Source: Polychytrium aggregatum
Taxonomy: Eukaryota > Chytridiomycota > Chytridiomycetes > Polychytriales
Direction: 5' to 3'
Assembly: GCF_025602895.1 (NCBI RefSeq)
Contig: NW_026516551.1
Location: forward strand, 1 to 23,568
DNA: 23,568 bases
Shown here: one piece after another, positions 3,621-21,737 of the stretch
Layout of the letters: every line of letters begins with the position of its first letter
Numbering within the stretch: position 1 is the stretch's first letter
The notes under the pieces: model-generated
The model's input: only the letters and a program-made list of their open reading frames with translations
Told to the model about the DNA's origin: nothing
Database searches by the model: none
Translations under genes and position numbers: made by a program

Positions 3621-3810
3621 GGCGGCTTGCGCCACCATGCACCTCTCGCACGACGCACAACACTTGGTTTGTTTCTCCTTCGGGGGAGGGGGCGAGGTGA
3701 ACTTCCTCTGGAGACGCGTGGACTGCATTGAGCAATCCACGGCGTTGGTCTCCTACTAGGGCTCCAGAGCCACCTAGTAGGGTCGGCCGTTTCCCGACTT
3801 CATGGGGCAC
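3621..3810 (-). pseudogene. pol: Start of A-I pol, truncated by B-I
   Basis: The first 63 codons of the pol frame are the same as in A-II. They include the overlap with gag but stop well before the protease motif. At 3620 the frame runs into the B-I LTR and ends after 17 foreign residues. This piece cannot encode any Pol enzyme. It is useful because it places the B-I insertion precisely within A pol. Confidence 0.85.
3752..3795 (-). promoter_or_regulatory. -1 frameshift signal at A-I gag-pol overlap
   Basis: The heptamer G GGA AAC (3789-3795 on the minus strand) is in the correct gag phase. A 7-nt spacer follows, then a stem-loop (3781-3752) pairing CCTACTAG with CTAGTAGG, a 2-nt bulge and an inner GGCT/AGCC helix with loop CTGG. 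It is identical to the copies in A-II and A-III. Confidence 0.8.
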
Positions 3811-4595
3811 TCCTTGGCCTGGTGTCCCGGTCGGTGACAGAAGAAGCAGGAACCATGGCGGAGGTCCTCCTGCTTCTGTCTGTCCTTGGGGGAGACAGTG
3901 GCAGCTTGCTGGAACCGGGAGCGGGGAGGGCCACGAGCCTCCATGGCGTTGACGTCAACGTCCATGGGCTCAGGCATGGGTCTTGCGGGCGGGGCCGGGC
4001 GAGGCGGACGGGCTGGGACGTGATGAGACCGATGGCCGCCTGCCAGCTGCGGGTAGAACTGGCGGCCATGGTACTGGACGTTGTCGAGGTTCTCGGCAAC
4101 GTCCATCATCACGTCCAGGGACTTGCGGGCATCAGGGTTGCTGGCGATGTACTCTCTGATCTTGGGCTTGAGGCCCTTCTGGAAGAGGTACATCGCATCA
4201 GCAGAGCCCAGCTCCTCAATCTGGGAGGAGAGGTCTTCAAACTCCTCGATGTAGCGGGTCACAGAACCACGCTGCACGAGAGAGTATAGCTTGTCACGGG
4301 CAATGAGTTCAGCATTGGGGCTGCCGAAGCGGCGACGGAGGCGGTCCTTGAAGTCGTCAAACACACCTTCGCTCTGCTCGTCGAACCCTTGGCGGCGGTA
4401 CCAACGGTACGCCTGGTCCTTTAAGCAGAGCTTGGCGGCGACGATGTGGTGGGTGGGGGCGACTTGGGCAGCATCGAGGTAGTCCTCGAGTTGCTGCAGC
4501 CAGTCCTCCACCGAGGAGGAGCGGCTCTTCCCAGTAAACACTGGGGCACGGAAGGTCTTGAGGAAGGCTTCCGGAAGTGGGCGGGGGTTGCTCAT
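3774..4595 (-). CDS. gag: Gag of element A-I
   Basis: Complete 273-residue Gag, the structural protein that forms the retrotransposon particle and binds its RNA. It starts with ATG at 4595 and ends with TAG. The body resembles Ty3/gypsy Gag ([34 protein letters not shown]). A proline-rich stretch follows at about residues 190-215, and a CCHC zinc knuckle with C250, C253, H258 and C263 ([14 protein letters not shown]) ends the protein. The sequence is identical to the Gag of A-II and A-III. The gene is intact, although its pol is destroyed by B-I, so any transcript from the A-I LTR could still supply Gag. Confidence 0.92.
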   Translation of the reverse strand: MSNPRPLPEAFLKTFRAPVFTGKSRSSSVEDWLQQLEDYLDAAQVAPTHHIVAAKLCLKDQAYRWYRRQGFDEQSEGVFDDFKDRLRRRFGSPNAELIARDKLYSLVQRGSVTRYIEEFEDLSSQIEELGSADAMYLFQKGLKPKIREYIASNPDARKSLDVMMDVAENLDNVQYHGRQFYPQLAGGHRSHHVPARPPRPAPPARPMPEPMDVDVNAMEARGPPRSRFQQAATVSPKDRQKQEDLRHGSCFFCHRPGHQAKECPMKSGNGRPY

Positions 4596-4705
4596 GGCAG
4601 GGGCAGGCTCCAGGGACAGAGAGGAGAGTCGGTCGGCAAGAGAGGCGGGATCCAGCTTGAGGATCTAGAAAGAGGACAAACAGGACGAAAACAAGACGAG
4701 GATTT

Positions 4706-4717
4706 CCGATGCTACCA
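4706..4717 (-). other. tRNA primer-binding site of A-I
   Basis: Directly after the 5' LTR the sense strand reads TGGTAGCATCGG. The first eight bases, TGGTAGCA, would pair with a tRNA ending UGCUACCA, the usual 3' end of eukaryotic initiator tRNA-Met. The tRNA identity is inferred. The position and the TGG start are seen directly. Confidence 0.65.
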
Positions 4718-5026
4718 TGTAACGTCCACTACTGGGACGTTGGGGCAAGACGGGGAGGGAGGGGGTACAAGACAAGACAGGACGGGGCAGAACAGGGCGG
4801 TGCTAGGCTACTCTAGCGGACGGGTGAGCTCGGGGAGCACTTACGTTTATTCACGATAAAACCGAACTCCAGACAAACGGGGGGAACGGGGGCAACCCGC
4901 AGGTATACCCTGCGGTGGCCTGCCTGCGGTGCGTGAAAACGCAAAGCGCAGCACAGGTCACGACCCACTGCGCCGCGCAGTACGCGCAGTACGCGCAGCA
5001 CAGCGTCGGAGATACCATCTCCTACA
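4718..5026 (-). repeat. 5' LTR of A-I (309 bp)
   Basis: On the sense strand it begins TGTAGGAGATGG and ends GGACGTTACA. It is the same, as far as I can read by eye, as the LTRs at 7267-7575, 12425-12733 and 18669-18977. It abuts fibre-gene sequence at 5027. Confidence 0.95.
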
Positions 5027-7266
5027 GGAAGCGTCTGGCCCATCAGCAACACCCGGTCGCCGGACTGCAGCGTCACTCCATCGATGACCGAGACGGGGCT
5101 GGTGAGGTCAACGTTCGAGTCGGCAGCGACAGAGACCGATTGCTTGACATTCAGGCCCCTCGCCACGGCATCGACATAACCCTTGGTCGCCGAGTCCGAC
5201 GACAGGATGGGGTCGGGGACGTTGGTCAGCCGGGTGACCGACTTGAGATCCATCACACCACTCACGACACTGAAATCACTGGTCGCCAGCCCGCCCGAGA
5301 GCTCGAGTACGTTGCTGGTGTTGGTCAAGGCGATGGTGTTTGTGGGGCTGGTCGTGTCCTGGATGTGCAAGGGGGATGCCACCACCGAGAGCGTCAGGGG
5401 CGATGGACAACTCAAAGTCAATGGCTGGTCAAAGGCCAGCTGGTTTGCACTGAACTGGATGGTACCCCCCGACGGGGCAATAAAGGACGGGCAGGTGAGC
5501 GAAGTGGCAATCGACACAGGGGCACCCGTCAGAGCCAGTGATGCATTAGCAGGGGTGGTGATGGATGTGACGTTCTGGATGGCGGACGAGTTGATCTCGA
5601 TGCCGCTCTCGATCACCAGCGGCACATTGCACTGGACCGTAGAGCCTCCGGTGCTAGTGGAGAGCTGAGCCCCGCCGGAAAAGACAATGGAGCTGGGCAG
5701 AGAGAGATTGGGGCAGATGGCACGGGCATTGGCAATGTCAAAGAGAATGGACAGATCGTTGCCGGGGGTAGTGGTGTCGATCCATGCAATCCCCGGATTC
5801 GGCGTGCTGGTGATGAGCCGGAGACTCTTGGTCTGGATGGAAGTAGACGGGTCAAAGGAGACAAAGGTAAAGACGTTGCTCGGGATGGAGAGGGTGTCTG
5901 CGGTGATGGTCAGCTCGGAGCCGACGATAACCGAGGTATCGACACTGAATGCACCGACCCGAGCCAAGTTCCCGAGACTCAACACATCGCTGCTGGCCGA
6001 GAGCACGACACCGCTGGTTCCAAAGATGAGCTGGCCGCCGACGATCTGCAGGTCTCTGTTGAGCAGCTGCAACCCGACCCCATCCGGTGCAGTGGGTCCC
6101 GCTGGATTCCACGAGTTGATGGCCATGAGCTGCCGACCAGCGTCAAACCATGGGCCATTGGCATTGATCTTGGAGCCATCGGATGCGAGTAGGAAGTTTG
6201 CAGCGAGCGAAGACGACCCTGTGCCTCCATAAGCGAGTCCGACGGCCTGGCCCTGCCATTTTCCCGCGGTGATGGTGCCGACGGCATCGAGATGGGTGAT
6301 GGAGGAGACAGAGAGGGTGCCGCCGGAAAGCGTCAGGCCCTCGCCGGCAAAGGTGTCTGCAACCCGCAGACCGCTTGGAGCAGCAATCAGCGACGAATCC
6401 TGGACCTGCACCGAGAGCTGCTTGCCGGAAGCGACGAGACCATTGCCGGCCACAGCCAAGCTGTCCCCCGACGAGCACTGGTGAACGCCCGACGAATCCA
6501 CCAGCCATGATGTATTCCCATACTGCGTGCCGGACTGGATGTAGACCAGAGTCTGGTTGGGCAGCGCAGCCGGGTTGTCGACATACATGTTGGTGGAGAG
6601 CGTCTGGACGGTCAGGATCTGGCTGGTGGCTGCACAAAAGATGGTCTGGCCGAGGAGGACGACGACCGAGTCGATGCTAAACTGGACGTAATAGTACTGG
6701 TTGGTGTTGGTGTCGAGAGTGGGTGCGGTGGCAATGTAGTAGTCTGCCGTCTGTCTCGATGCGATCCCGTTGCTGACCCAGTTCTGCAGATACGAGAGCG
6801 GCACGGCATCGGTCGGATCGGTTGGGGTCGGCAGGCCCGTCAGCGTCCCTCCGCCCCCGATGGCCAGTTTCGATCCACTCTGGGTGAGGGTCTGGCCCTG
6901 GATGTAGAGAGTGGTGCATCCGAGGGTCTGGGACTGGACCGAGTTGGCCGAGACGGCATCGGCAAAGTAGCTCTCGATCTGGACCTTGGGGATATCAAGG
7001 GTGCCGTCGTCTCGAGCGGTCCAGATGGTCTGTCCGTTGCGCACGAATGCGGTGGAATTGGTGCTGTCCACCAAAGACGAGTGGGTCATGGCGAGAGTGT
7101 CGGTTTGCACCTGCTGGGCCTGAATGGTGCCGCTCACAGTCTCGCTACCGGTGACGGTCAGGGTGGCCACTTTGACTTCCTCGGTCTCGAAATACCCGCT
7201 GGCAATGGCCCCTATCTGCACGAGCACCCAAGTAGATGTGTCGATTGGAGGTGTCAGTGCAGTGAC
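5027..7266 (-). pseudogene. Fibre-like virion protein, C-terminal part, cut by A-II and A-I
   Basis: Continuation of the gene that starts at 14841. Dropping A-II and one GTGAC copy keeps the frame (codon position 2 at 12734, position 3 at 7261). This part has about 745 codons and no stop before A-I cuts it at 5026, so the true C-terminus is outside the window. It is rich in Ser, Thr, Gly and short beta-prone repeats typical of phage and giant-virus fibres. It holds a GTITAGKWQG...AYGGTG module (about 6215-6280), an LTGLPTPTDPTDAVPLSYLQ module (about 6780-6840) and a SATKGYVDAVARGLNV module (about 5150-5200). The likely role is a trimeric surface fibre or adhesin. That is inferred from repeat style, not from a named family. 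The open frame runs 68 codons into the A-I LTR. Confidence 0.8.
7262..7266. repeat. Target-site duplication of A-II, left copy (GTGAC)
   Basis: GTGAC immediately left of A-II matches GTGAC at 12734-12738 immediately right of it. A 5-bp duplication is standard for Ty3/gypsy integrases. It shows that A-II arrived by a single integration into a continuous gene. Confidence 0.93.
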
Positions 7267-7575
7267 TGTAACGTCCACTACTGGGACGTTGGGGCAAGAC
7301 GGGGAGGGAGGGGGTACAAGACAAGACAGGACGGGGCAGAACAGGGCGGTGCTAGGCTACTCTAGCGGACGGGTGAGCTCGGGGAGCACTTACGTTTATT
7401 CACGATAAAACCGAACTCCAGACAAACGGGGGGAACGGGGGCAACCCGCAGGTATACCCTGCGGTGGCCTGCCTGCGGTGCGTGAAAACGCAAAGCGCAG
7501 CACAGGTCACGACCCACTGCGCCGCGCAGTACGCGCAGTACGCGCAGCACAGCGTCGGAGATACCATCTCCTACA
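7267..7575 (-). repeat. 3' LTR of A-II (309 bp)
   Basis: TGTAGG...GTTACA on the minus strand, apparently identical to the 5' LTR at 12425-12733. The pol stop codon (TAA, 7585-7587) lies only 9 bp from it, with a short purine run (GTGTGGGAG on the sense strand, 7576-7584) as the only candidate polypurine tract. Confidence 0.95.
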
Positions 7576-7584
7576 CTCCCACAC

Positions 7585-10500
7585 TTAAGAAGGCTTCCTG
7601 CGAGGAGCCCTGCGTGTGCTCTTTATTTGGGGCTCCTCGAGGTGTTTACCGTATTTACTCAGCTCCTCGGGTGCATGGGACAAGTCCTCCAGTGTTTGCC
7701 ATGTGTTGCCCGAGTGTGGGTAACCAACCCACTTGACATAAAACCGAAGTGACCCATCAGCCACTTTCTTGTGCCTCACGATCCTTTCGACTTCATATTC
7801 TTGAGTATAGTATTGTCCGAGGTCGTCTTCCAGTGGTGCGTCGTCCGGGACACCTTCGTCGGCGTCGGGGAACTGTGCTGGACTGCGGGTCGTGTGGCGA
7901 CGCAGCTTGGACACATGGAAGACAGGATGGAGCTTGCTTCCAGGTGGCAAGTCCAACAGGTAGTTGAGGGGACTGGGTCGGGCCGCTATCTTGAACGGTC
8001 CTCGGTACTTGGGCAACAACTTCTTTGACTGGGCTTCGGGGACCTTGATGTTGTCGGCGTCCAGGTAGACAAGGTCTCCAACTTCAAAGGAGACATCCTG
8101 GTGTCGGCGGTCGTAGTACTTCGCCATCACTTGTTGCGCATCCGTGAGCGCGTCGGCGATCATCTTGTGTCGGACTTGATGATCTTTGACAAAGGCACTT
8201 GGTTTGGGAGGCAATCCAGCCGTGGACTCGGTCAGTGTCAAGGAGGTGGGAACATCAGGCTGGAATCCGTAGAGCGCCTCAAAGGGGCTCAAGCCAGTTG
8301 TGCTCGACTTGGCGGTGTTGTATGCAAACTCTGCATGACTCAGCTGTATGTCCCAGTCGTCTTGGCTGGTCGAGGCGTATGTCCTCAGGTATTGCTCGAG
8401 GGTGCGGATCGTCCGCTCGGACTGTCCATCCGTTTGTTGGTGGTGCGAGGTTGACATGTTCAGCTTGGTGCCGAGATGGTCGAACAGACTTGTCCAAAAC
8501 AAGGAGGTGAATCGGGGGTCTCGATCACTGACGATGGACTTTGGGAGGCCGTGGTGCTTGAACACATGCTTGAAGAACAGCAGTGCAAGGTCAGGCGCGG
8601 AGCATGTCGTCTGGCACGGCACAAAGTGTGCCATCTTGCTGAACCTGTCGACAAAGACAGCGATTGCATCGTGGTCCAACTTGGTCGTCGGTAGATGCGT
8701 GATGAGATCCATGGACATGCTGGTCCAGGGGCGGTCGGGAACAGGCAGGGGTTGCAGCAATCCTTGCTCTCGGGTCGTGCGTGACTTGACCATCTTGCAG
8801 GTATGGCAGGACTCGATGTACTTCTCGACGGTGCGCTTCATTCCAGGCCAGTATGCGACTTTGGCCAGTCGGTCGTATGTCTTCTCGACTCCAAAGTGTC
8901 CAGCGAGGGGCGAGTCGTGGACCTCTTGGAGCAACTTGGTCTTCAACGACGGAATGTCCGGCACACAGACACGGCTGTCCTTCTTCAGGAGGAGCAGGCC
9001 ATCACGCACTGTGTACTCGGATGATTCGTCGTCCTTGGGGAGCTTAGACACCTTTCGGAACAGTTCTCCGAACTGTTTGTCGTTGGCGATGTTGTCTCGG
9101 ACAACATCCAGCATCGTGTTGTCGACACTGACAGTCGACTCGTACAGTGACGCCAATTGGTAGTCGGGGCGTCGGGACAGTGCGTCAGGCACCACATTGA
9201 GTTTGCCTTTCTGGTATACAACCTCGTAGTTGTACTCGGCGAGGAACTCCATCCATCGCGCTTGGCGTCGGCTCAGGTTCTTCTTGGTGTCGAGGTAACG
9301 CAGTGACTGGTGGTCCGTCACAATCTTGAAGGGCTTGGCGGTACCGTGGAGGTACACTCGGAACTTCTGCAGCGCGTAGATGATCGCAAGCTGCTCCTTC
9401 TCGTGCACGGGATAGTTGATCTCGTGTTGGGACAGTTTGCGCGACTCGAAGGCAACGGGCCTTCCCTCCTGCATCAAAACAGCTCCCACCGCAAAGTCGG
9501 AGGCGTCGGTGTGCACGGAGACATCCGTGTTCGGGTCGAACACAGCGAGGACAGGAGCGTTCGTCAAGGCGTGCTTGAGGGTCTCGAACGCTTGGCGTTG
9601 TGGGTGGTCCCACACGAAGGGGCACTCTTTGCGGAGTAGGTCTGTGAGTGGACCGGCAGTGCGCGCCAGATCGGGGATGAATCGGCGGTAGTAGTTGACG
9701 AGACCGAGAAACGACTGCACGTCAGAGACGCATGCGAGCGGCGGCCACTCGACCACAGACTTGACCTTGGCGGGGTCGACTTCGATTCCTCTTCCTGAGA
9801 CAACGTGTCCCAGGAACGGGACTTGATTCTTGAAGAACTCACACTTGGACAGTTTGGCATACAACTTGTGCTCGCGTAGCTTGGCCAGCACGCGGGCGAC
9901 ATGACCTTCATGGGTCGCTTCATCCTTGCTGTACACAAGGATATCATCCAGGTACACGATGACAGAGTTGTCGAGCTCTTGGCGGAACACATCGTTCATC
10001 AGCTGCATGAACGTGGCAGGTGCGTTCGTCAATCCGAACGGCAGCACTAGGAACTCGTACAGTCCGTAGCGAGTCCTGAAGGCGGTCTTGTGGACATCAT
10101 CCTCGTGGATGCGGATCTGATGGTAGCCTGAGCGGAGGTCTATCTTGCTAAAGACCTTTGCTCCACTCAGACGATCCATCAACTCGTCGATCCTGGGCAA
10201 CGGGTAGGTGTTCTTGATGGTCTGTTTGTTTAGTGCGCGATAGTCGACGCACATCCTGAGATCACCTTCTTTCTTCTTGACAAAGAGCACTGGTGCACCA
10301 TACGGTGACTGGCTCGGGCGGATGAACCCATGGGCGAGGAGGTCATCCAACTGGCGCTTGAGTTCGTCCATCTCCGTCAGCGACAGTTGGTACGTCGGTC
10401 TTGACGGAGGCGACGAGCCTGGTTCGATGTCGATGCGATGATCGACGGTGCGTTGGGGTGGCAGGCATTGTGGCAACTGGTCGGGGAATACGTCCTTGTA

Positions 10501-11517
10501 CTCGTCGAGCAGCTTGGTCACCACAGGCGGGGGACCGGGACCGGCTTGGTCGGTGTCGTCGACCTCACGCACGACACAGAGGAACGACGTGTCCTTCTTG
10601 ATCAGCCTCTTGAATTGCATGGCTGAGAGGAGAGGTGGCATGTTGGGTGAGGCCATGCCCTGCAGGACAATGTCAGGGCCAACACGGACAGTGCGGCCTT
10701 TCCAGTCGACGACTGGAGTCGGCTCGGCACGAGCAAGCCAGCTCATGCCGAGGATGGCATCGAACTTGGTGTCGATCACTTGGAACAACAGGACAGGATG
10801 GTACTTGGGATGGAGGGCCACTCGCAGGACCACTTGGTGTGTGCACTGCTGCACACGATCGTCTGCAAGCGCCACACTCATCGGCGACTTCTTCTTGGTT
10901 GCATGTATGTTGAGCTCCTGGAGCAAGCGTCTGCTGACAAAGTTGCAGCTTGCTCCAGAGTCCACCATCATTCGGACGGTGTGACCTTGGACGGTGGCAG
11001 GGAGGTACAGCAGGGACTCTTCATGGTCCTCCTGCACAGCCTCCTGCACCATGACTTGACTTGGGGGAACGGGCGACACTTGGTCTTGGTTGGCTTCATC
11101 ACGGCCACTCGGACATTTTGGATAGGGTTCGGCCATTGCGGGGGCCTGCGGCGTCAGCACGCCATTGCACACGACGTCCACGGCTTGCGGACACATGTCG
11201 GAAGCATCCGACACACACGACTTGACAGGGGTGAGGGCACAGGCGGTCCTGTCCCTCAAGGGTTCTTGATTTTCTTTTTTGTTTTGGTTTTCAATTTTGG
11301 TTTTCTCTTCACGTTCGTGGAGAGGCAGGCGGCTTGCGCCACCATGCACCTCTCGCACGACGCACAACACTTGGTTTGTTTCTCCTTCGGGGGAGGGGGC
11401 GAGGTGAACTTCCTCTGGAGACGCGTGGACTGCATTGAGCAATCCACGGCGTTGGTCTCCTACTAGGGCTCCAGAGCCACCTAGTAGGGTCGGCCGTTTC
11501 CCGACTTCATGGGGCAC
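7585..11517 (-). CDS. pol: Pol polyprotein of A-II (PR-RT-RNase H-IN-chromodomain)
   Basis: About 1310 codons, open from at least 11517 in the -1 frame relative to gag. No ATG opens it, so it should be made as Gag-Pol by frameshifting at 11496-11502. Domains by approximate residue: aspartic protease DSGAS (186-190); RT with [11 protein letters not shown] (459-469), LPFGLTNAP (492-500) and YLDD (522-525); RNase H D671, E708, D735, D778. The integrase has a zinc finger H867, H874, C904, C907 and a triad D937, D998, E1034 (35 residues between the last two). A GPF motif lies near 1173 and a chromodomain at 1241-1292 ([15 protein letters not shown]). The chromodomain is known in this group to steer integration to modified histone H3, usually heterochromatin. 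No frame breaks are seen. Confidence 0.95.
11459..11502 (-). promoter_or_regulatory. -1 frameshift signal at A-II gag-pol overlap
   Basis: Slippery heptamer G GGA AAC (11502-11496) in gag phase, 7-nt spacer, then CCTACTAG paired with CTAGTAGG, a GT bulge, and GGCT paired with AGCC around loop CTGG (11488-11459). The gag TAG stop lies in the 5' arm of the stem. Slippage by one base enters the pol frame. Confidence 0.85.
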
Positions 11518-12302
11518 TCCTTGGCCTGGTGTCCCGGTCGGTGACAGAAGAAGCAGGAACCATGGCGGAGGTCCTCCTGCTTCTGTCTGTCCTTGGGGGA
11601 GACAGTGGCAGCTTGCTGGAACCGGGAGCGGGGAGGGCCACGAGCCTCCATGGCGTTGACGTCAACGTCCATGGGCTCAGGCATGGGTCTTGCGGGCGGG
11701 GCCGGGCGAGGCGGACGGGCTGGGACGTGATGAGACCGATGGCCGCCTGCCAGCTGCGGGTAGAACTGGCGGCCATGGTACTGGACGTTGTCGAGGTTCT
11801 CGGCAACGTCCATCATCACGTCCAGGGACTTGCGGGCATCAGGGTTGCTGGCGATGTACTCTCTGATCTTGGGCTTGAGGCCCTTCTGGAAGAGGTACAT
11901 CGCATCAGCAGAGCCCAGCTCCTCAATCTGGGAGGAGAGGTCTTCAAACTCCTCGATGTAGCGGGTCACAGAACCACGCTGCACGAGAGAGTATAGCTTG
12001 TCACGGGCAATGAGTTCAGCATTGGGGCTGCCGAAGCGGCGACGGAGGCGGTCCTTGAAGTCGTCAAACACACCTTCGCTCTGCTCGTCGAACCCTTGGC
12101 GGCGGTACCAACGGTACGCCTGGTCCTTTAAGCAGAGCTTGGCGGCGACGATGTGGTGGGTGGGGGCGACTTGGGCAGCATCGAGGTAGTCCTCGAGTTG
12201 CTGCAGCCAGTCCTCCACCGAGGAGGAGCGGCTCTTCCCAGTAAACACTGGGGCACGGAAGGTCTTGAGGAAGGCTTCCGGAAGTGGGCGGGGGTTGCTC
12301 AT
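11481..12302 (-). CDS. gag: Gag of element A-II
   Basis: 273 residues from ATG at 12302 to TAG at 11481, identical to the Gag copies at 3774-4595 and 19100-19921. Capsid-like body, then a proline-rich linker and a CCHC zinc knuckle (C250, C253, H258, C263). The last 12 codons overlap the pol frame. Since the A-II pol is intact, this is the copy most likely to be part of a working element. Confidence 0.95.
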
Positions 12303-12412
12303 GGCAGGGGCAGGCTCCAGGGACAGAGAGGAGAGTCGGTCGGCAAGAGAGGCGGGATCCAGCTTGAGGATCTAGAAAGAGGACAAACAGGACGAAAACA
12401 AGACGAGGATTT

Positions 12413-12424
12413 CCGATGCTACCA
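12413..12424 (-). other. tRNA primer-binding site of A-II
   Basis: TGGTAGCATCGG on the sense strand, directly after the 5' LTR. TGGTAGCA fits the 3' end of initiator tRNA-Met. The same sequence is found in A-I and A-III. Confidence 0.65.
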
Positions 12425-12733
12425 TGTAACGTCCACTACTGGGACGTTGGGGCAAGACGGGGAGGGAGGGGGTACAAGACAAGACAGGACGGGGCAGAAC
12501 AGGGCGGTGCTAGGCTACTCTAGCGGACGGGTGAGCTCGGGGAGCACTTACGTTTATTCACGATAAAACCGAACTCCAGACAAACGGGGGGAACGGGGGC
12601 AACCCGCAGGTATACCCTGCGGTGGCCTGCCTGCGGTGCGTGAAAACGCAAAGCGCAGCACAGGTCACGACCCACTGCGCCGCGCAGTACGCGCAGTACG
12701 CGCAGCACAGCGTCGGAGATACCATCTCCTACA
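12425..12733 (-). repeat. 5' LTR of A-II (309 bp)
   Basis: TGTAGG...GTTACA on the minus strand. It holds three perfect inverted repeats (GGAGAT/ATCTCC, CCGCAGG/CCTGCGG, AACGTCC/GGACGTT) and an AATAAA on the sense strand. It abuts fibre-gene sequence at 12734. Confidence 0.95.
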
Positions 12734-12738
12734 GTGAC
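12734..12738. repeat. Target-site duplication of A-II, right copy (GTGAC)
   Basis: Right-hand copy of the 5-bp duplication, matching 7262-7266. Its removal together with A-II restores the reading frame of the fibre-like gene. Confidence 0.93.
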
Positions 12739-14841
12739 ACCGGTCAACCCCCGTCCCGTCAGCACAGTGTTAGCAGCGCCGATGGAGAGGAACCAGGTCT
12801 TTGCACCGCCCGCATTCTGAACGAGATAGTACAGCTGGGCGGATGGGGGGCTGGTCTTGGTGTAGAGACGATAGCCCTCGGTTGGGCTATAAGACCACTG
12901 GCCCTCGACGGTGATGGAAGTCCAGTTGAGATCGTTGATTTGGTAAAAGCCCGTCGACAGCATCGTTTCAAAGACGGGTGCCTGGAGGGTGCTCACCGCA
13001 ATCGATGGAGCCGTGAACGACTCGAGCTGTGGTGCATTCAGCGTGCCGTTGACGGTGACGACGGTGCTGCCAGAGGACGGGTCTGGTGAGATCTCTGCGA
13101 CGGAGATGGCTCTGGCGGTGGCATCGTATGCGGGTCCCTGGACCCAGGAACCACTGGTTCTGCACTGGATGCCATCGAGGAGGGTGGTGGAGCCAGTCCC
13201 GCCATACGCGACGGCCACCGGGGTCGACTCCCAGACACCCTGGGAGATGGTGCCGAGTTGCGAGACATGCGACTGGTTCGAGTCGGTTGCAACCAGGCCG
13301 CCCGAGATGTTGAGGATGCCGCGGCCTGGCTGGATGCGATGGGTGCCCGAGAAGAGGACCCACTCGGTGACGCTGCCGGTGACAATGCAGACGTAGGTTT
13401 GGTCGTCGTTGATGGAGTAGACCAAGTTGCCGTTGCCTGTCGACACGAGCGACCCGGTGTCCCAGACACCCATCTGCGAGCCGGAGAGAACGAGCACGCG
13501 GCCGGTCGAAGGAATCGACACCCCGGACGGACCAGCGATAGTGAATTGGACCGAAGCGATGGGGGCAAGCCCGACGGACATTTGGTCGACATATGCCTTG
13601 GAGACAGCATCACTCGACGAAGACCACGATATGTTCGTCACTCGGTTGCCGCCCATATCGAGCGTCGCCGTGGGGTTCCATTGGCCCGAGAGCGAGCTGC
13701 ATTGAAGCGAGGGAGCATCGATGCGGACGCTGGTTGGGTGGTAGATGACGATCTCGTTGGTGTCGCCCTGAATATACCCGAGACCTGAGGTAAAGTCGAT
13801 CTGGCTGAACGTAGACGAGGAGCCGGAACCTCCGCCTCCACCACCGCCAGAGCCACCGCCGCCACCACCAGACGACGGCCAAGTGGGTTGATTCCGGAAG
13901 GTGACATTGCCGAGGAACTCGATCGAGTCGGTGAATGTGACCGGGCCGGTGAGTTCTGGGCAGGTGATGGAGCCGGTGCATACGAGGCTGCCGTCGTTGT
14001 AGATCTGGATGCCGACCCCATTGGCATTTTGGACTTGGATGGATGCCGAGTCGCTGGTAAACTTGACACCCCCATAGAGATCGAGCTGGCGCACACTGAG
14101 GGTGTCGAGATGGACAGCGTTGCCTGCATTGAGATAGAGATCCTGGCCGGACCCGGTGATCTGAGTGCCGGCAGAGACATTGATTCCCGCATATGCCTTG
14201 AGGGGGCTGCCACGGATGCTGATCTGGCCGCCGTCGTCGAGCAAGCTGAGGGTCATACCGCTGTCCAGAAAGACCTGGCTGCACTGCACAACGCCGGCCT
14301 GCACGGTTCCAGACTGGCTTTGCAAGAAGAGGGTCCCGCTGTTGTTGTAGATGCCGGTCTGGCCGGTCGAGTCAAAGTCGATCCCCTGGAGGGTGTGCAA
14401 GGGCTGTGAGAAGGTCGTCTCGAAGCCAATGGTGTTGGAAGCGCTCATGACGCCATTGAAGATCTGCATGGTGCCGTTCAAGGCCGAGTTGGGATCCATG
14501 ATGGCCACGAGATTCTCGCTGCCCTTGATGCCGATATAGAAGAGCTGGGTCGAGTCGTCGTAGGTGAGCACGGCGGGAGCAAGCGATCCTCGGTTGACCA
14601 TGAGGCCGCCGCGAGTCGATGGGTTGGAGGCATCGTTGACTTCGACATACGCGTCGGTGATGGTGGTGATGGTGCTCTCGACGGTGTTGATGTTGCCGAG
14701 GACCTCGAAATTGCCATTGACTCTGAGATCGCCGGCGAGCTGGAGGCTGCTGAAGGACACATTGGACTGCGGGGTGAGGGGCTGGAGCAGATTCTGGTCG
14801 ATTCGTCGGACATACTGGGCAAGAGAGCGAACGTCCTGCAT
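12734..14841 (-). pseudogene. Fibre-like virion protein, N-terminal part, cut by A-II
   Basis: I start it at the first in-frame ATG (14841, MQDVRSLAQYVRR). The frame is open upstream but has no other ATG. About 702 codons remain before A-II. Features in order: a short helical N-terminus; GNINTVESTITTITDAYVEV, a fold-start motif typical of phage tail fibres; repeated Ser/Thr/Gly strands; a glycine-serine linker (about 13818-13878); GNRVTNISW...AVSKAYVD (about 13585-13640), the repeat common in tail-fibre shafts; and GTISQGVWES...AYGGTG (about 13195-13260), the counterpart of the module in the C-terminal part. The whole protein would exceed 1447 residues. The role is inferred as a surface fibre. 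It lacks any enzyme motif. The next gene is divergent, 114 bp away. Confidence 0.8.
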
Positions 14842-14955
14842 GACCAACGCTGTCTTTTGGATGGCGGTGGGCAAAAAAAGGACATTGCAGCTGGCGCAGG
14901 AATCATGCAAATATTTTGTATGATTGAGAGTATCATCGAAACCAAAGTTTGGAGA
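14842..14955. promoter_or_regulatory. Divergent intergenic region with a T7 tract
   Basis: This 114-bp gap separates the fibre gene (leftward) from the coiled-coil gene (rightward). It holds A7 at 14873-14879, read as T7 on the fibre sense strand, 31 nt before the fibre ATG. It also has an AT-rich stretch (about 14905-14925, ATATTTTGTATG) that may serve the rightward gene. Two in-frame ATGs (14905, 14920) precede the preferred coiled-coil start and could be alternative starts. Confidence 0.45.
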
Positions 14956-17046
14956 ATGAACGACTCGGATGACCAAATGGGTATGAGCTCAGGAAGTAGC
15001 GATGATTCGATGTCGGAAGTATCCCCCTTTTATGATGCTGATGCTGCTATGGATGATGTTTTCGATCGATTTTTGGATGAAGAGCCACCCGCAAAAATCG
15101 AGATATCGCCCAGTATTGTGAAACACACTCCAGATGTATCACGAATTGCGGATCCTACTGAAGTCGATTCAGACACTCCGCGTAGGTGGGTCCGAGATAT
15201 AATTGGTATTGTCACGTCTGTTGATAGCTACTCGCATAATATCAAAGGAAAAGGCGAAGCACTGATAAAGAGTATCACATCCGAAACATTTGACCACATC
15301 ACCAAAATGACAAAAGACATAGAACATGATAAAACGATGCTTAATAATATTGAGAGCGGTGATGTTGAAGATTTATACGGTGGTACAATTCAGAATCTGA
15401 GAGGAGCCCTCGATAGTTATCTTGAATACCTGACACGGGAGTATAGTGCAATGCAGGACATCGTTGCAACGACCAAAAAATTGATCGACAAGTATGATGA
15501 CCAGTCGTACCTCGGTACATTGAACGCGCTTAAGATAGAAGTCGAAGTTGGGATTGGACTAATCTACGAAAGAACAGCTTTAAAGACCACGCCACTCTTG
15601 AGTGAAGCCGAAGCAAAGTCGTATGCCCAGGCGAGGATGAATTTTTTTTCATTCCTTGAACGTCTCAAGGATGACTACAGAAATGACATCAGGTTCATTA
15701 ATAAATATGGAAGGGTCAGGATGGAAATGGTGGAACGACACCTCGGTGAGATGACCCTGGCCATCAAGAGGGCGTGGAATCAATATACTCTTCATGTGAC
15801 TCTTATCGATGCTGAACATATGGAATGGAAAGAGCTTCGCGATACATTGAAAGATACACTCGCCGAAAAAGCACACTGTGAGGATAAATATGAGGTACTC
15901 CTATTGGAAGATCACAAACGGAAAGAACGTGCAGCCAAAAAGAAGAAACGTGCTACTGAGGCAGACGATGACAAGAAGACTGAAGATGAAGATGAAAAAC
16001 TAATTCCAGACATTGAAATTGCATTAGACGCACTCGGTATTCCTTCGAATGAATGGCCTGACTATAATAACACAAGCAATGAAGAATATAAAAGCTTCAT
16101 CCAGCAAAGGGTTGTTAACATTGTCGAACAATCGACCCACACTCAGCTTGCCGAAAAGAATCAGCTGATAGAGAGGCAGCATCAACTACTCACTCACCAG
16201 ACGGTTGTAATGGATCAACTGAACGCACAGCTGGAAGCCAATGCTGTCGAGTTAGAAGGAATGGTGGCAGGGAGAGACGCGGGAGTTGAACAATCGAGAC
16301 AGAGTTTTGCCCAACAATTAGCAGCAAAAGACAGTGAAATTCAAAATTTGTCACGCCAGCTCGCGGAGCGACAAGTGATTGTAACAACCCAGAGTCGTAA
16401 TATACAGAAACTGTACGAAGATAAAGAAGCCGTGACAACGGAGCTGACCGCGAAGGACAATGATGTTAATCAATTGAGACAGAATTTGGAACAACATACG
16501 GAAGCCCTTACACAGGCTCAAAAGGCCAATCAAGAGCTGAATCATCAAGTGTCAGCAAAGACTATCGAAAATGGAAACTTGACACGCCAGAATGAAGCCA
16601 TGACAGCCGAGCTGACCGCAAAGGAAAATCATGTTACTCAATTGGGACAGAGATTGATGCAAAATGCTAACGCCCTTGGCGTGTTTACCGCCGAATCGAA
16701 ACGTAAAGATGAAGAAATAGCAAGTTTAACTGAAAAAGTCAACAAGCTCAATAAATTAACACCTAAATACAATGAATTGGAAGATGCATTGCTTAGTATA
16801 CGAACGCTATTAAGTAACATCAGTACTGGTGAAACAAGCACAGTACCAGATATCAATAGCACAACATCAGACTCTAACGTTTCGATTAGTTCTTTGGTAA
16901 CCAAAATCGAAGCTATCATTAACGAACGCAAGATAGCACAGATGACAAAAGCAATAGCTCCGAACATCCAGGACTACGTCAAACAAAAATTGAACCGCAC
17001 CGTGGCTCAAGCGATCGATTGCCTACATGGCAAAGTATACCTCTGA
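14956..17046 (+). CDS. Large coiled-coil protein, unknown function
   Basis: I do not recognise the family. From ATG 14956 (MNDSDDQMGM) it has 696 residues. In-frame ATGs at 14905 and 14920 are less likely because they would start inside an AT-rich promoter-like stretch. Layout: an acidic Ser/Asp-rich N-terminus (1-45); a helical region (about 90-320) with no known motif; a basic patch KRKERAAKKKKR (about 319-331) followed by an acidic run, possibly a nuclear signal; then long heptad-rich coiled coil (about 395-630) and a short C-terminal helix. Within the coil, ELTAKDNDVNQL and ELTAKENHVTQL are 56 residues apart, that is eight heptads, with similar DNA (168 bp apart). A third relative, QQLAAKDSEIQNL, lies upstream. 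Composition is strikingly AT-rich beside its neighbours. A structural or scaffold role in a virion is possible but unproven. Confidence 0.8.
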   Translation: MNDSDDQMGMSSGSSDDSMSEVSPFYDADAAMDDVFDRFLDEEPPAKIEISPSIVKHTPDVSRIADPTEVDSDTPRRWVRDIIGIVTSVDSYSHNIKGKGEALIKSITSETFDHITKMTKDIEHDKTMLNNIESGDVEDLYGGTIQNLRGALDSYLEYLTREYSAMQDIVATTKKLIDKYDDQSYLGTLNALKIEVEVGIGLIYERTALKTTPLLSEAEAKSYAQARMNFFSFLERLKDDYRNDIRFINKYGRVRMEMVERHLGEMTLAIKRAWNQYTLHVTLIDAEHMEWKELRDTLKDTLAEKAHCEDKYEVLLLEDHKRKERAAKKKKRATEADDDKKTEDEDEKLIPDIEIALDALGIPSNEWPDYNNTSNEEYKSFIQQRVVNIVEQSTHTQLAEKNQLIERQHQLLTHQTVVMDQLNAQLEANAVELEGMVAGRDAGVEQSRQSFAQQLAAKDSEIQNLSRQLAERQVIVTTQSRNIQKLYEDKEAVTTELTAKDNDVNQLRQNLEQHTEALTQAQKANQELNHQVSAKTIENGNLTRQNEAMTAELTAKENHVTQLGQRLMQNANALGVFTAESKRKDEEIASLTEKVNKLNKLTPKYNELEDALLSIRTLLSNISTGETSTVPDINSTTSDSNVSISSLVTKIEAIINERKIAQMTKAIAPNIQDYVKQKLNRTVAQAIDCLHGKVYL

Positions 17047-17047
17047 C

Positions 17048-17194
17048 ATGGACGCCATTTCCGCAACCAACAATGTGAAATTAGACGACGTCTTCAGCCC
17101 AATGCTCACACGAATGAAGAGCAAAACCAGTGATCTCACTCAACTCTACAAGGTCTTCACCACGAGCGGATTCAGTTTCGTGCCCCAGACGTGA
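17048..17194 (+). CDS. Small ORF, 48 codons, unknown
   Basis: ATG at 17048 lies one base after the stop of the coiled-coil gene (TGA 17044-17046). The ORF runs to TGA at 17192-17194. The product (MDAISATNNVKLDDVFSPML...) is mostly polar, with no membrane segment and no motif I know. Its last 23 bases overlap the end of the convergent gene at 17172-17492. Arguments for it are the close spacing and the clean ATG. Against it are its small size and the lack of a separate promoter. It may be a remnant of a longer gene. Confidence 0.35.
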   Translation: MDAISATNNVKLDDVFSPMLTRMKSKTSDLTQLYKVFTTSGFSFVPQT

Positions 17195-17492
17195 ACATGG
17201 TGTTTCTTGCGGTCCAGTTGTCCTCATAACCCTGGATTCTGTTACGCACAACAGCAACGCTTTTCTCCAATGACTTGTAGATTGATATCAACCCAGTTTT
17301 CAAATATGATACATACCAGTCATACCCAGTTATCATCTCAGTAAGAGCATCGCTTATGACTTGAATCTTTGAAATGTCGACGGAACATGTTGTTGCTGGT
17401 GGTTTCGTATAGGCCGACTCGATAAAGGTTGCCAAATTCGATTCAAACACATGAAATGCGGCGTCAATTGCATTTTTAACAGAATCGTCCAT
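17172..17492 (-). CDS. Small helical protein, paralogue of the 75-residue protein at 18138
   Basis: 106 residues from ATG at 17492 to TGA at 17172. It has no signal peptide or membrane segment and is mostly helical. The C-terminal 35 residues resemble those of the gene at 18138-18365. Both have a Y-x-SL pattern followed about 20 residues later by W-x-ARN-x-MF (NWTARNTMF here, GWEARNAMF there). The two genes flank the metalloprotease gene, so this looks like an old duplication. The gap to the upstream metalloprotease is 42 bp and holds a T7 tract 29 nt before the ATG. Function unknown. A small virion or accessory protein is a guess. Confidence 0.75.
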   Translation of the reverse strand: MDDSVKNAIDAAFHVFESNLATFIESAYTKPPATTCSVDISKIQVISDALTEMITGYDWYVSYLKTGLISIYKSLEKSVAVVRNRIQGYEDNWTARNTMFTSGARN

Positions 17493-17521
17493 GATCAGCC
17501 TACACTTTCCAGAAAATCAAG

Positions 17522-17528
17522 AAAAAAA
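17522..17528 (-). promoter_or_regulatory. T7 tract between metalloprotease and 106-residue gene
   Basis: TTTTTTT on the sense strand, 6 nt after the metalloprotease stop and 29 nt before the next ATG. It may end the upstream transcript, start the downstream one, or do both. Confidence 0.4.
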
Positions 17529-17534
17529 TGACAA

Positions 17535-18098
17535 TCAATCCAACCCTCCCAAATCCAAACCACAGTAATTGGAGCTGTTCTTATCGGTGTGATACATACC
17601 CAGACGATGCGCCTCGCGCTTGAGGAACCGGAAGTTTTCCAAAAACTCCCCGTTGTGACCCTCGGAAGCACTTGCCACATGGGCCAGCTCGTGGAGCATG
17701 ACGTACATTAGCAGATTCGGGGGTATCACTTCCCCGGTCTGGCGATCGCGAATGCACATGGAGATCAGCGTGCCCTTGTTCACCGTATACGACGTGAACT
17801 CGGCATTCCGCGTCTCCTGCATCCTTGTCGGGCTAAACCGAGCCCGGAGTCTGTCGAGAGCGATGCGCTCCTTATCGGTGGTCGGGTTGCAGTGGTTGAT
17901 GATATGGCTAGCATCAACTCCCAGTTTCCCGAGTATCCGAAAGCTCTCTGCATTGACGTCGTCATTTTTGGATTCATTGACGCAGATGGCTTCCTTGCCG
18001 GGTAAGCACACCTGCTGACGATATCTCGATCGGAAACACACGCACACGGCGACAATGAGGAGTACTGCCAAAAAGCCGATCCAGTTTTGTAAAGACAT
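17535..18098 (-). CDS. Membrane-anchored SprT/WLM-like zinc metalloprotease
   Basis: 187 residues, ATG at 18098. A hydrophobic segment at 5-22 (WIGFLAVLLIVAVCVC) followed by Arg-rich residues indicates an N-terminal membrane anchor with the body beyond it. The zinc motif is HELAH (136-140) with E137 catalytic. The following EGHNGEF puts H148 where SprT/WLM enzymes have the third ligand (HExxH, then HG-like and F). Single-domain HELAH proteins of this size with a leading membrane segment are common in nucleocytoplasmic large DNA viruses. Cellular SprT and WLM proteins act in protein-DNA crosslink repair, but the membrane anchor argues for a different, perhaps virion, role here. Cys residues in the predicted ectodomain (31, 39, 70, 115, 179) could form disulphides. 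Neighbouring genes lie 39 and 42 bp away on the same strand. Confidence 0.85.
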   Translation of the reverse strand: MSLQNWIGFLAVLLIVAVCVCFRSRYRQQVCLPGKEAICVNESKNDDVNAESFRILGKLGVDASHIINHCNPTTDKERIALDRLRARFSPTRMQETRNAEFTSYTVNKGTLISMCIRDRQTGEVIPPNLLMYVMLHELAHVASASEGHNGEFLENFRFLKREAHRLGMYHTDKNSSNYCGLDLGGLD

Positions 18099-18123
18099 GG
18101 TGAGCGTCTTTCATTCAGCCCTG

Positions 18124-18130
18124 AAAAAAA
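18124..18130 (-). promoter_or_regulatory. T7 tract before the metalloprotease gene
   Basis: TTTTTTT on the sense strand, 7 nt after the stop of the 75-residue gene and 25 nt before the metalloprotease ATG. Same placement as the other leftward genes. Confidence 0.4.
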
Positions 18131-18137
18131 TCGATTT

Positions 18138-18365
18138 TCACTTGGGAGGCTGGAACATGGCATTGCGTGCCTCCCATCCCTTCAGGTACTCGGTATCCTG
18201 TTTCAAAACATGCTCCTTGACGTCTTTGAGGGATTGATAGTACTCCAGCAGGTTGTCTCGGATGGTTTTGATGAGCTCTTGCTGAATCTTGATGGTGTTT
18301 TCGAGCTCATCCATCGTAGTCTTCTCGGTCTCTGGAGTGACGGGTGCGGACGATGGCTGATCCAT
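18138..18365 (-). CDS. Small coiled-coil protein, paralogue of the 106-residue protein
   Basis: 75 residues, ATG at 18365 (MDQPSSAPVTPETEK). A polar Pro/Thr/Ser-rich N-terminus of about 15 residues precedes a helix with heptad spacing (about 20-60). It ends GWEARNAMFQPPK, matching the NWTARNTMF end of the protein at 17172. No membrane segment. It heads the three-gene leftward cluster, 39 bp before the metalloprotease. A T8 tract lies 22 nt before its ATG. The next gene upstream is divergent, 69 bp away. Function unknown. Confidence 0.75.
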   Translation of the reverse strand: MDQPSSAPVTPETEKTTMDELENTIKIQQELIKTIRDNLLEYYQSLKDVKEHVLKQDTEYLKGWEARNAMFQPPK

Positions 18366-18387
18366 TCTGGGCTACGTTTGTGGGAAG

Positions 18388-18395
18388 AAAAAAAA
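18388..18395 (-). promoter_or_regulatory. T8 tract in the divergent promoter region
   Basis: TTTTTTTT on the leftward sense strand, 22 nt before the ATG of the 75-residue gene. Because the neighbouring gene is divergent, this copy cannot be a terminator for an upstream leftward gene seen here, which favours a promoter role. Confidence 0.4.
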
Positions 18396-18434
18396 GGAAC
18401 TGCGTTGAATGCACCCCCTATATTCTCTCGGTCA

Positions 18435-18668
18435 ATGAGCAGAAGCCTTGTCATGTCGGCCAAGGAGATTTTCAAGCGTTTTATTGAGTATCTCAAAGAG
18501 AACGGCAGCGAAGCCCAGCGCACGACCGGCCGTGCTCTCTCCAATACATTCGACACCATCTTGGGACATTTGAGTGAGCCGATCTTTGTGGATATGTGCG
18601 GGGACGTCAACTCGTCGATTCTGCGGGATGTGTCCTTCTTTGAAGCAGCCCGTGACCCCAAGGGACGG
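18435..18668 (+). pseudogene. Unknown gene, first 78 codons, cut by A-III
   Basis: ATG at 18435 (MSRSLVMSAK), with a second in-frame ATG at 18453 that could be the true start. The frame runs 78 codons to the A-III LTR with no stop and then continues into the LTR. The visible part is soluble and helical (KEIFKRFIEYLKENG; LSNTFDTILGHLSEPIF), with no motif I recognise. TATATT (about 18420) lies just upstream. The remainder should lie beyond A-III and B-II, outside the window. The bases at the junction, GACGG (18664-18668), would be the left half of the A-III target duplication. Confidence 0.65.
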
Positions 18669-18977
18669 TGTAGGAGATGGTATCTCCGACGCTGTGCTGC
18701 GCGTACTGCGCGTACTGCGCGGCGCAGTGGGTCGTGACCTGTGCTGCGCTTTGCGTTTTCACGCACCGCAGGCAGGCCACCGCAGGGTATACCTGCGGGT
18801 TGCCCCCGTTCCCCCCGTTTGTCTGGAGTTCGGTTTTATCGTGAATAAACGTAAGTGCTCCCCGAGCTCACCCGTCCGCTAGAGTAGCCTAGCACCGCCC
18901 TGTTCTGCCCCGTCCTGTCTTGTCTTGTACCCCCTCCCTCCCCGTCTTGCCCCAACGTCCCAGTAGTGGACGTTACA
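18669..18977 (+). repeat. 5' LTR of A-III (309 bp)
   Basis: TGTAGGAGATGG to GGACGTTACA. Inverted repeats lie at 18673-18678/18682-18687 (GGAGAT/ATCTCC), 18780-18786/18792-18798 (CCGCAGG/CCTGCGG, around GTATA) and 18954-18960/18968-18974 (AACGTCC/GGACGTT). AATAAA is at 18844-18849. A GCGCGTACT unit is repeated near 18697-18720. Confidence 0.95.
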
Positions 18978-18989
18978 TGGTAGCATCGG
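18978..18989 (+). other. tRNA primer-binding site of A-III
   Basis: TGGTAGCATCGG directly after the LTR. It starts with TGG and fits initiator tRNA-Met for at least eight bases. Confidence 0.65.
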
Positions 18990-19099
18990 AAATCCTCGTC
19001 TTGTTTTCGTCCTGTTTGTCCTCTTTCTAGATCCTCAAGCTGGATCCCGCCTCTCTTGCCGACCGACTCTCCTCTCTGTCCCTGGAGCCTGCCCCTGCC

Positions 19100-19921
19100 A
19101 TGAGCAACCCCCGCCCACTTCCGGAAGCCTTCCTCAAGACCTTCCGTGCCCCAGTGTTTACTGGGAAGAGCCGCTCCTCCTCGGTGGAGGACTGGCTGCA
19201 GCAACTCGAGGACTACCTCGATGCTGCCCAAGTCGCCCCCACCCACCACATCGTCGCCGCCAAGCTCTGCTTAAAGGACCAGGCGTACCGTTGGTACCGC
19301 CGCCAAGGGTTCGACGAGCAGAGCGAAGGTGTGTTTGACGACTTCAAGGACCGCCTCCGTCGCCGCTTCGGCAGCCCCAATGCTGAACTCATTGCCCGTG
19401 ACAAGCTATACTCTCTCGTGCAGCGTGGTTCTGTGACCCGCTACATCGAGGAGTTTGAAGACCTCTCCTCCCAGATTGAGGAGCTGGGCTCTGCTGATGC
19501 GATGTACCTCTTCCAGAAGGGCCTCAAGCCCAAGATCAGAGAGTACATCGCCAGCAACCCTGATGCCCGCAAGTCCCTGGACGTGATGATGGACGTTGCC
19601 GAGAACCTCGACAACGTCCAGTACCATGGCCGCCAGTTCTACCCGCAGCTGGCAGGCGGCCATCGGTCTCATCACGTCCCAGCCCGTCCGCCTCGCCCGG
19701 CCCCGCCCGCAAGACCCATGCCTGAGCCCATGGACGTTGACGTCAACGCCATGGAGGCTCGTGGCCCTCCCCGCTCCCGGTTCCAGCAAGCTGCCACTGT
19801 CTCCCCCAAGGACAGACAGAAGCAGGAGGACCTCCGCCATGGTTCCTGCTTCTTCTGTCACCGACCGGGACACCAGGCCAAGGAGTGCCCCATGAAGTCG
19901 GGAAACGGCCGACCCTACTAG
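19100..19921 (+). CDS. gag: Gag of element A-III
   Basis: Intact 273-residue Gag, ATG 19100 to TAG 19919-19921, identical in sequence to the A-I and A-II copies. Capsid-like body, proline-rich linker and CCHC knuckle (C250, C253, H258, C263). The 110-bp leader between PBS and ATG holds no ORF of note. Its pol is destroyed downstream by B-II. Confidence 0.93.
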   Translation: MSNPRPLPEAFLKTFRAPVFTGKSRSSSVEDWLQQLEDYLDAAQVAPTHHIVAAKLCLKDQAYRWYRRQGFDEQSEGVFDDFKDRLRRRFGSPNAELIARDKLYSLVQRGSVTRYIEEFEDLSSQIEELGSADAMYLFQKGLKPKIREYIASNPDARKSLDVMMDVAENLDNVQYHGRQFYPQLAGGHRSHHVPARPPRPAPPARPMPEPMDVDVNAMEARGPPRSRFQQAATVSPKDRQKQEDLRHGSCFFCHRPGHQAKECPMKSGNGRPY

Positions 19922-20875
19922 GTGGCTCTGGAGCCCTAGTAGGAGACCAACGCCGTGGATTGCTCAATGCAGTCCACGCGTCTCCAGAGGAAGTTCACCT
20001 CGCCCCCTCCCCCGAAGGAGAAACAAACCAAGTGTTGTGCGTCGTGCGAGAGGTGCATGGTGGCGCAAGCCGCCTGCCTCTCCACGAACGTGAAGAGAAA
20101 ACCAAAATTGAAAACCAAAACAAAAAAGAAAATCAAGAACCCTTGAGGGACAGGACCGCCTGTGCCCTCACCCCTGTCAAGTCGTGTGTGTCGGATGCTT
20201 CCGACATGTGTCCGCAAGCCGTGGACGTCGTGTGCAATGGCGTGCTGACGCCGCAGGCCCCCGCAATGGCCGAACCCTATCCAAAATGTCCGAGTGGCCG
20301 TGATGAAGCCAACCAAGACCAAGTGTCGCCCGTTCCCCCAAGTCAAGTCATGGTGCAGGAGGCTGTGCAGGAGGACCATGAAGAGTCCCTGCTGTACCTC
20401 CCTGCCACCGTCCAAGGTCACACCGTCCGAATGATGGTGGACTCTGGAGCAAGCTGCAACTTTGTCAGCAGACGCTTGCTCCAGGAGCTCAACATACATG
20501 CAACCAAGAAGAAGTCGCCGATGAGTGTGGCGCTTGCAGACGATCGTGTGCAGCAGTGCACACACCAAGTGGTCCTGCGAGTGGCCCTCCATCCCAAGTA
20601 CCATCCTGTCCTGTTGTTCCAAGTGATCGACACCAAGTTCGATGCCATCCTCGGCATGAGCTGGCTTGCTCGTGCCGAGCCGACTCCAGTCGTCGACTGG
20701 AAAGGCCGCACTGTCCGTGTTGGCCCTGACATTGTCCTGCAGGGCATGGCCTCACCCAACATGCCACCTCTCCTCTCAGCCATGCAATTCAAGAGGCTGA
20801 TCAAGAAGGACACGTCGTTCCTCTGTGTCGTGCGTGAGGTCGACGACACCGACCAAGCCGGTCCCGGTCCCCCGC
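19885..20875 (+). pseudogene. pol: A-III pol, protease part only, truncated by B-II
   Basis: Pol frame in -1 phase to gag, entered by frameshifting at 19900-19906. The first 330 residues are as in A-II, including the basic linker and the aspartic protease (GAC of DSGAS at 20440). They end just before RT. At 20876 the frame passes into the B-II LTR and stops after about ten residues. Any product would be Gag-protease without RT or integrase. Confidence 0.88.
19900..19943 (+). promoter_or_regulatory. -1 frameshift signal at A-III gag-pol overlap
   Basis: GGGAAAC at 19900-19906, spacer 19907-19913 (7 nt), stem CCTACTAG (19914-19921) with CTAGTAGG (19936-19943), bulge GT (19922-19923), inner GGCT/AGCC (19924-19927/19932-19935), loop CTGG. 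The gag stop TAG is the end of the 5' arm. Confidence 0.85.
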
Positions 20876-21668: not shown

Positions 21669-21680
21669 ATTTTGAACGCT
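21669..21680 (+). other. Self-primer binding site of B-II
   Basis: ATTTTGAACGCT, two bases after the LTR, is the exact reverse complement of AGCGTTCAAAAT at 21459-21470, 39 nt after the TATA box. No TGG start is present, so a tRNA primer is unlikely. This arrangement matches Tf1/sushi-type elements, whose RNA 5' end folds back on the PBS to prime. Confidence 0.8.
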
Positions 21681-21737
21681 CCCTCTTGGCTTCCCGGCCT
21701 TTCTTCTTCTTTCGCCTCTCTTTCCCTCGTCGATCCG

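Follow-up and report, generated by a model that had tools for sequence, protein, structure and literature searches.

What is a run of tightly packed, intron-free genes doing among retrotransposons in the genome of Polychytrium aggregatum, a chytrid of the order Polychytriales whose assembly comprises 64.68 Mb in 418 contigs? The window that we analysed is an entire contig (C278, 23,568 bp), which has retroelements at both of its ends and so carries no host gene of its own. Between them lies an island spanning 5027-18668, broken by the element A-II at 7267-12733 (Table 1). A sequence-only reading had proposed an endogenised virus of Nucleocytoviricota type, and this is upheld by hallmark genes in the same assembly and by matches of island proteins to the WLM metallopeptidases and to phage structural proteins. 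We therefore think it very probable that the island derives from a Nucleocytoviricota lineage infecting zoosporic fungi and is a fragment of the viral genome now lodged in the nuclear DNA of P. aggregatum. The island carries virus-type genes, it exists in further copies, and Ty3 elements have since inserted into it; it is one fragment of a far larger viral complement.

The intergenic gaps given in the earlier reading, 114 bp (14842-14955), 42 bp (17493-17534), 39 bp (18099-18137) and 69 bp (18366-18434), are all exact, and there is a fifth, of 125 bp, at 17047-17171. Five complete or split genes are each open without introns. The two small proteins are paralogous, as had been suggested (local alignment score 54, a value reached by none of 500 shuffles, whose maximum was 50). 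The coiled-coil protein has relatives in only two other contigs of this genome, C2 and C255, and its Pfam matches all fall below cut-off. The reading frame of the gene starting at 18435, interrupted by A-III past 18668, goes on in C2.

Table 1. Features of the window (positions on contig C278)
Feature	Position	Strand	Details
B chromovirus, incomplete at contig end	1-3618	+	pol 145-2817 with chromodomain; repeat (LTR) from about 2830
A-I, truncated A copy	3619-5026	-	LTR 4718-5026
Fibre-like gene, 3' part	5027-7266	-	A-I cuts it at 5026, A-II at 7267; one open frame
A-II, full-length Ty3 chromovirus	7267-12733	-	LTRs 7267-7576 and 12425-12733; gag 11481-12302; pol 7585-11517
Fibre-like gene, 5' part	12734-14841	-	ATG at 14841; one open frame
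Long coiled-coil protein, 696 aa	14956-17046	+	ATG 14956
Small protein, 106 aa	17172-17492	-	paralogue of 18138-18365
T7 tract	17522-17528	-	29 nt upstream of ATG 17492
Membrane-anchored WLM metallopeptidase, 187 aa, HELAH	17535-18098	-	PF08325
Small protein, 75 aa	18138-18365	-	paralogue of 17172-17492
T tracts like 17522-17528	18124-18130, 18388-18395, 14873-14879	-	each upstream of a minus-strand start
Viral gene, first 78 codons	18435-18668	+	cut by A-III; frame continues in C2
A-III, truncated A copy	18669-20875	+	LTR 18669-18977
B chromovirus, incomplete at contig end	20876-23568	+	repeat (LTR) from 20876; gag 21672-22691

The claim that the island encodes a phage or giant-virus fibre finds support in the 3' part, which in a PHROG profile search matched phage structural families (phrog_2647, head decoration, 3.4e-16; phrog_30390, 2.3e-11; phrog_24595, 4e-8), but the two 'fibre' reading frames are a single gene split by A-II; no PHROG or Pfam family was matched by the 5' part. 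The 3' part is 99.6% identical to C2:102429-104671, and in C2 the two parts are continuous, although the central portion of the 3' part, query 284-671, matches there in a different frame from both ends. In C255 both parts fall within a single open frame of 1493 codons, ending in the LTR of another A copy. The possibility of two separate fibre genes is ruled out by the empty site in C2, the GTGAC target duplication and the single frame in C255. We also rejected as fibre coding sequence the open reading frame tails at 4813-5026 and 12520-12733, which are read-through into LTR sequence.

One island gene, that for the protease, is a giant-virus marker. As described from the sequence, it has both the HELAH motif and an N-terminal hydrophobic helix; it belongs to the WLM family (PF08325: 30.6 bits against a curated Pfam cut-off of 26), with the HExxH active-site motif, for which a catalytic role is predicted. 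A search with the single sequence found two proteins, the host's own and one metagenomic, and an alignment of the window protease with this metagenomic relative then retrieved 1189 relatives. Among the 119 of these that were listed and examined, all have HExxH and 104 have an N-terminal helix of membrane type. Matches to solved structures by sequence alone were weak (best E 0.015). The model of the protease structure (mean pLDDT 87.4) resembles yeast Wss1 (5xbn, E 1.5e-4) and, at E <=0.001, eight viral structure models, four of them named (Orpheovirus, Iridovirus Liz-CrIV, Chloriridovirus anopheles1 and Pithovirus LCPAC304). 'Metallopeptidase WLM' is the name of orthologous group GVOGm0787 in the legend of a supplementary figure (PMC8575486), a WLM metallopeptidase figures in a gene-cluster table of a proposed expanded Mimiviridae (PMC3620924), and two are recorded for Chrysochromulina parva virus CpV-BQ1 (PMC12085832). 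Profile searches, proposed earlier as a check, thus linked the 3' part of the fibre to phage structural proteins and the protease to the giant-virus WLM group. The statement that no hallmark gene was visible holds for the window as regards capsid, PolB, A32 and VLTF3, but not for the WLM gene, a giant-virus marker present in the island. The C2 copy of this region has a public gene model with introns (P0121, BJ171DRAFT_597244; 261 aa), which fuses a small protein, the WLM protease and a second small protein. We do not accept it as a real intron-bearing gene: it spans three separate open frames, and so has the look of an artefact of gene modelling by which three viral genes are concealed.

Are the missing hallmarks elsewhere in the assembly? 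Profile searches, paired with 14 control genomes, found capsid, PolB, VLTF3 and A32-type ATPase genes, though none on a contig that carries the island. Capsid_NCLDV, the double-jelly-roll major capsid protein, is present in three places (C63, C326 and C5; best E 2.4e-50) and in none of the controls, and the PBCV-1 capsid is among the solved-structure matches of the protein. The product of the C63 gene is 100% identical to a public sequence annotated as the major capsid protein of P. aggregatum. Over 1248 bases the gene shows no differences between C63 and C326, and four between C63 and C5. VLTF3 occurs once (C96, E 4e-46; no control matches), adjoined by the sole A32 match in the assembly, which is weak (27.4 bits against a cut-off of 22.8, E 4.6e-5) and of a kind also seen in two of the 14 controls. 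The 18 PolB matches include two full-length, intron-free frames of 992 and 995 codons, on C189 and C5, the remainder being partial or having stops; five of the 14 controls match too, as expected of a family that is also cellular. The lack of introns, together with linkage to the capsid gene on C5 (at a separation of 139 kb), argues for a viral rather than a cellular polymerase. Near the capsid gene on C63 are genes for a DUF5901 protein and RNase III. Scans of a collection of viral contigs with WLM, VLTF3 and a capsid alignment gave 0, 3 and 34 pattern matches in the three scans, of which none was confirmed as a relative.

Downstream of the capsid gene on C63 is a transposon (L039:905-4687) that encodes a DDE_3 transposase and, in a reading frame of 854 aa, a Fanzor/TnpB-like protein (Cas12f1-like_TNB, E 1.2e-9). 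Its ends are similar inverted sequences flanked by a TA duplication, and the C5 copy of the region is an empty site. Relatives are found on C326 (L005), where the transposase reading frame lies in two frames, and at C2:38501-42073, in a copy cut by an A element.

Genes on different viral contigs also share a run of T residues shortly before the start codon. A sense run of six or more T residues lies within 60 nt upstream of nine of 23 hand-picked viral genes, compared with 1.4% of random 60-mers drawn from the viral parts of seven loci. The nine include three island genes and those for the capsid, RNase III and A32 proteins; the fibre start at 14841, with a T7 tract 31 nt upstream, stands outside the count. 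The 23 genes are those left from 25 initial rows after two fibre pieces with uncertain starts had been dropped. The pattern is post hoc, having been chosen after the upstream sequences had been viewed in a search for A runs, and the genes were hand-picked, so the calculated probability of 1.4e-11 is too optimistic. Runs of A were likewise above background (A5 or longer upstream of six of 25 genes, against 2.5%; A6 or longer upstream of three of 23, against 1.35%). T tracts may also be a general fungal habit.

It could be argued that only the capsid and PolB regions derive from Nucleocytoviricota, and that the island belongs to a different element, such as a polinton-like or other DNA virus. 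The island lies on C278, C2, C255 and C59, and the tested hallmarks on C63, C326, C5, C96 and C189; this separation counts against the giant-virus reading, along with the absence from the other hallmark contigs of D5_N. Matches to D5_N occur in 13 places (C374, C101, C182, C193, C206 and eight other contigs), none of them on a capsid, PolB, VLTF3 or island contig, and in three of the 14 controls. Five have equal scores, four of these being frames of 1036 codons, which suggests some other element, perhaps viral or mobile, that this genome holds in multiple copies. Against such an origin for the island are its WLM gene, as a giant-virus marker, the similar sense T tracts upstream of island, capsid, RNase III and A32 genes, and the occurrence of the same transposase-Fanzor pair on C2 and beside the capsid gene on C63. 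We consider this alternative improbable.

Evidence on integration comes from the other copies of the island. There are three in all: C278, C2, and a copy divided between C255 and C59, the ends of which flank one further A insertion with the duplication TAACC. Outside the coiled-coil repeat they are 96.9-99.7% identical. Between C278 and C2, identity is 99.3-99.6% in the fibre gene; elsewhere two stretches reach 99.4% and 99.7%, and a 414-bp part of the coiled-coil gene 81.9%. Between C278 and C255 it is 99.2-99.7% in the fibre gene, and two parts of the rest, 1.85 kb and 372 bp long, show 96.9% and 89.2%. The insertions differ among the three copies, which may have integrated separately, have arisen by duplication or be alleles of homologous chromosomes. 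Host-gene matches are often paired on two contigs with equal scores (e.g. C113/C405, C364/C378 and C190/C71), from which it seems that the assembly probably keeps two haplotypes and that some viral copies may be alleles.

C2 is a contig of 1,068,768 bp, in which we surveyed the open reading frames from 20 to 220 kb, a range in which no junction of viral and ordinary host DNA was seen. From 20 to 112 kb the frames are intron-free, and virus-like where they match families (thymidylate kinase, Sel1-kinase, haspin-like kinase and fibre), although thymidylate kinase and the kinases are not virus-specific, and several of the C2 families are also cellular. From 112 to 220 kb most frames match A or B. 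The virus-like part includes two large frames with similar openings (C2:47614-49722 and C2:71760-74267; 702 and 835 aa), neither of which has a Pfam match. Some 750 kb from the island, at 857-859 kb, is a match to a mitochondrial carrier in three pieces, from which we infer that C2 is host DNA. Judged from C2, then, the island appears to be integrated in host DNA, provided that the carrier is, as it seems, of host type.

The window contig itself, without a host gene and with retroelements at both ends, might be taken for part of a giant virus that was present in the culture, free or episomal, and had been invaded by host retrotransposons, and several other viral contigs (C326, C96 and C189) are short. 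Such a source for unintegrated DNA is nevertheless highly improbable, given that the C2 island is on a 1.07-Mb contig that runs into about 100 kb of mostly retroelement reading frames and has the carrier match, and that copies of element A lie on 11 contigs or more. The notion that these are ordinary genes, of fungal or bacterial kind, in DNA rich in retroelements, for which one might cite the occurrence of WLM and kinase domains in fungi and the introns of P0121, can all but be dismissed, since that model joins three open frames as an apparent artefact and, besides it, the 120 protease relatives listed, most of them nameless, include just one cellular name (a bacterial MAG, P0169).

If the island is, as we favour, integrated giant-virus DNA, its gene families suggest what it would have done in the living virus: it may have been a virion module of a fungal giant virus. 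Such a module would have supplied a WLM protease anchored in the membrane, a coiled-coil protein and a long protein of fibre or decoration type, all from closely packed genes, several of which are preceded at short distance by a T tract. Later, young retrotransposons with chromodomains inserted into the integrated DNA, A-II and A-I in the fibre gene and A-III in the next gene. Both A and B are Ty3 chromoviruses, with gag, reverse transcriptase, RNase H, integrase and a C-terminal chromodomain; in the window the truncated A copies abut incomplete B copies. A-II has GTGAC on both flanks, whereas C2 is an empty site with one GTGAC. The retrotransposons cutting this island copy are young: the LTRs of A-II are identical over at least 300 nt, and in a census of the A LTR (699 first-look candidates, 40 scored) 41 of the 42 matches listed are 100% identical. 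With two insertions in its fibre gene this copy cannot make a whole fibre, and it is now a relic, the fibre gene and the gene at 18435 both being cut.

Does A seek out viral DNA? The idea that it is confined to GEVE regions is unsupported, as its LTR matches are on at least 11 contigs, and on C2 the two elements cover 19.5% of the viral stretch compared with 31% of the neighbouring 108 kb, which counts against targeting of viral DNA. It is conceivable, though we think it unlikely, that P. aggregatum harbours large integrations (at least two copies or alleles) of a distinct chytrid giant virus, able to integrate and remain latent and with its own T-tract promoter signal, and that retrotransposons with chromodomains take up residence in this silenced DNA and inactivate one copy after another, the insertions still differing among copies. 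With the island copies one can ask directly whether viral DNA is a preferred target of chromodomain elements, and the comparison of nearly identical copies that have or lack a given insertion shows how viral DNA is dismantled in a fungal genome.

Large DNA viruses of fungi are only now gaining recognition, and the presence in a chytrid of capsid, polymerase, packaging and late-transcription genes supports giant-virus infection of zoosporic fungi. When the 120 nearest capsid proteins are arranged in a tree (made by a quick method with SH-aLRT support and drawn with a midpoint root), all eight proteins of named fungi (one each from Polychytrium and Catenaria, and two each from Quaeritorhiza, Allomyces javanicus and Blyttiomyces) fall inside one clade of 40 (SH-aLRT 100), in which Polychytrium joins Quaeritorhiza (support 93). 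Metagenomic sequences are interspersed, so the fungal ones form no clade of their own, and the 120 listed proteins include none from a named isolate of a giant virus. The family Mycodnaviridae has been proposed for fungal giant viruses (Myers et al., 10.1101/2024.01.04.574182, as cited in PMC12993054); the clade of 40 does not define it. In the literature searched we found no report of a giant virus in P. aggregatum itself, a species that the preprint of Myers et al. may treat.

How does the P. aggregatum island compare with known systems? The proposed Mycodnaviridae resemble it, going by description, as Nucleocytoviricota of zoosporic fungi, for which genomic evidence of a lysogenic type of life is put forward (PMC12993054). 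Giant-virus genes in early-branching fungi have already been published (PMC5294986, PMC9894930, PMC10640383). As described in the first of these, Gonapodya, Allomyces and Rhizophagus likewise have NCLDV core genes, which in Gonapodya and Allomyces are in small islands among eukaryotic genes, but each fungus has fewer of them than P. aggregatum. In Euglena gracilis, an algal rather than a fungal host, GEVEs are similarly said to be eroded by transposable elements and duplications (PMC12455990). The 1.5-Mb viral region of Rhizophagus irregularis is also an endogenous giant virus in a fungus; in the account given in PMC10640383 it is related to Asfarviridae, and forms one long region with few transposable elements and no capsid gene, whereas in P. 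aggregatum the capsid is present and the viral regions are cut by chromoviruses.
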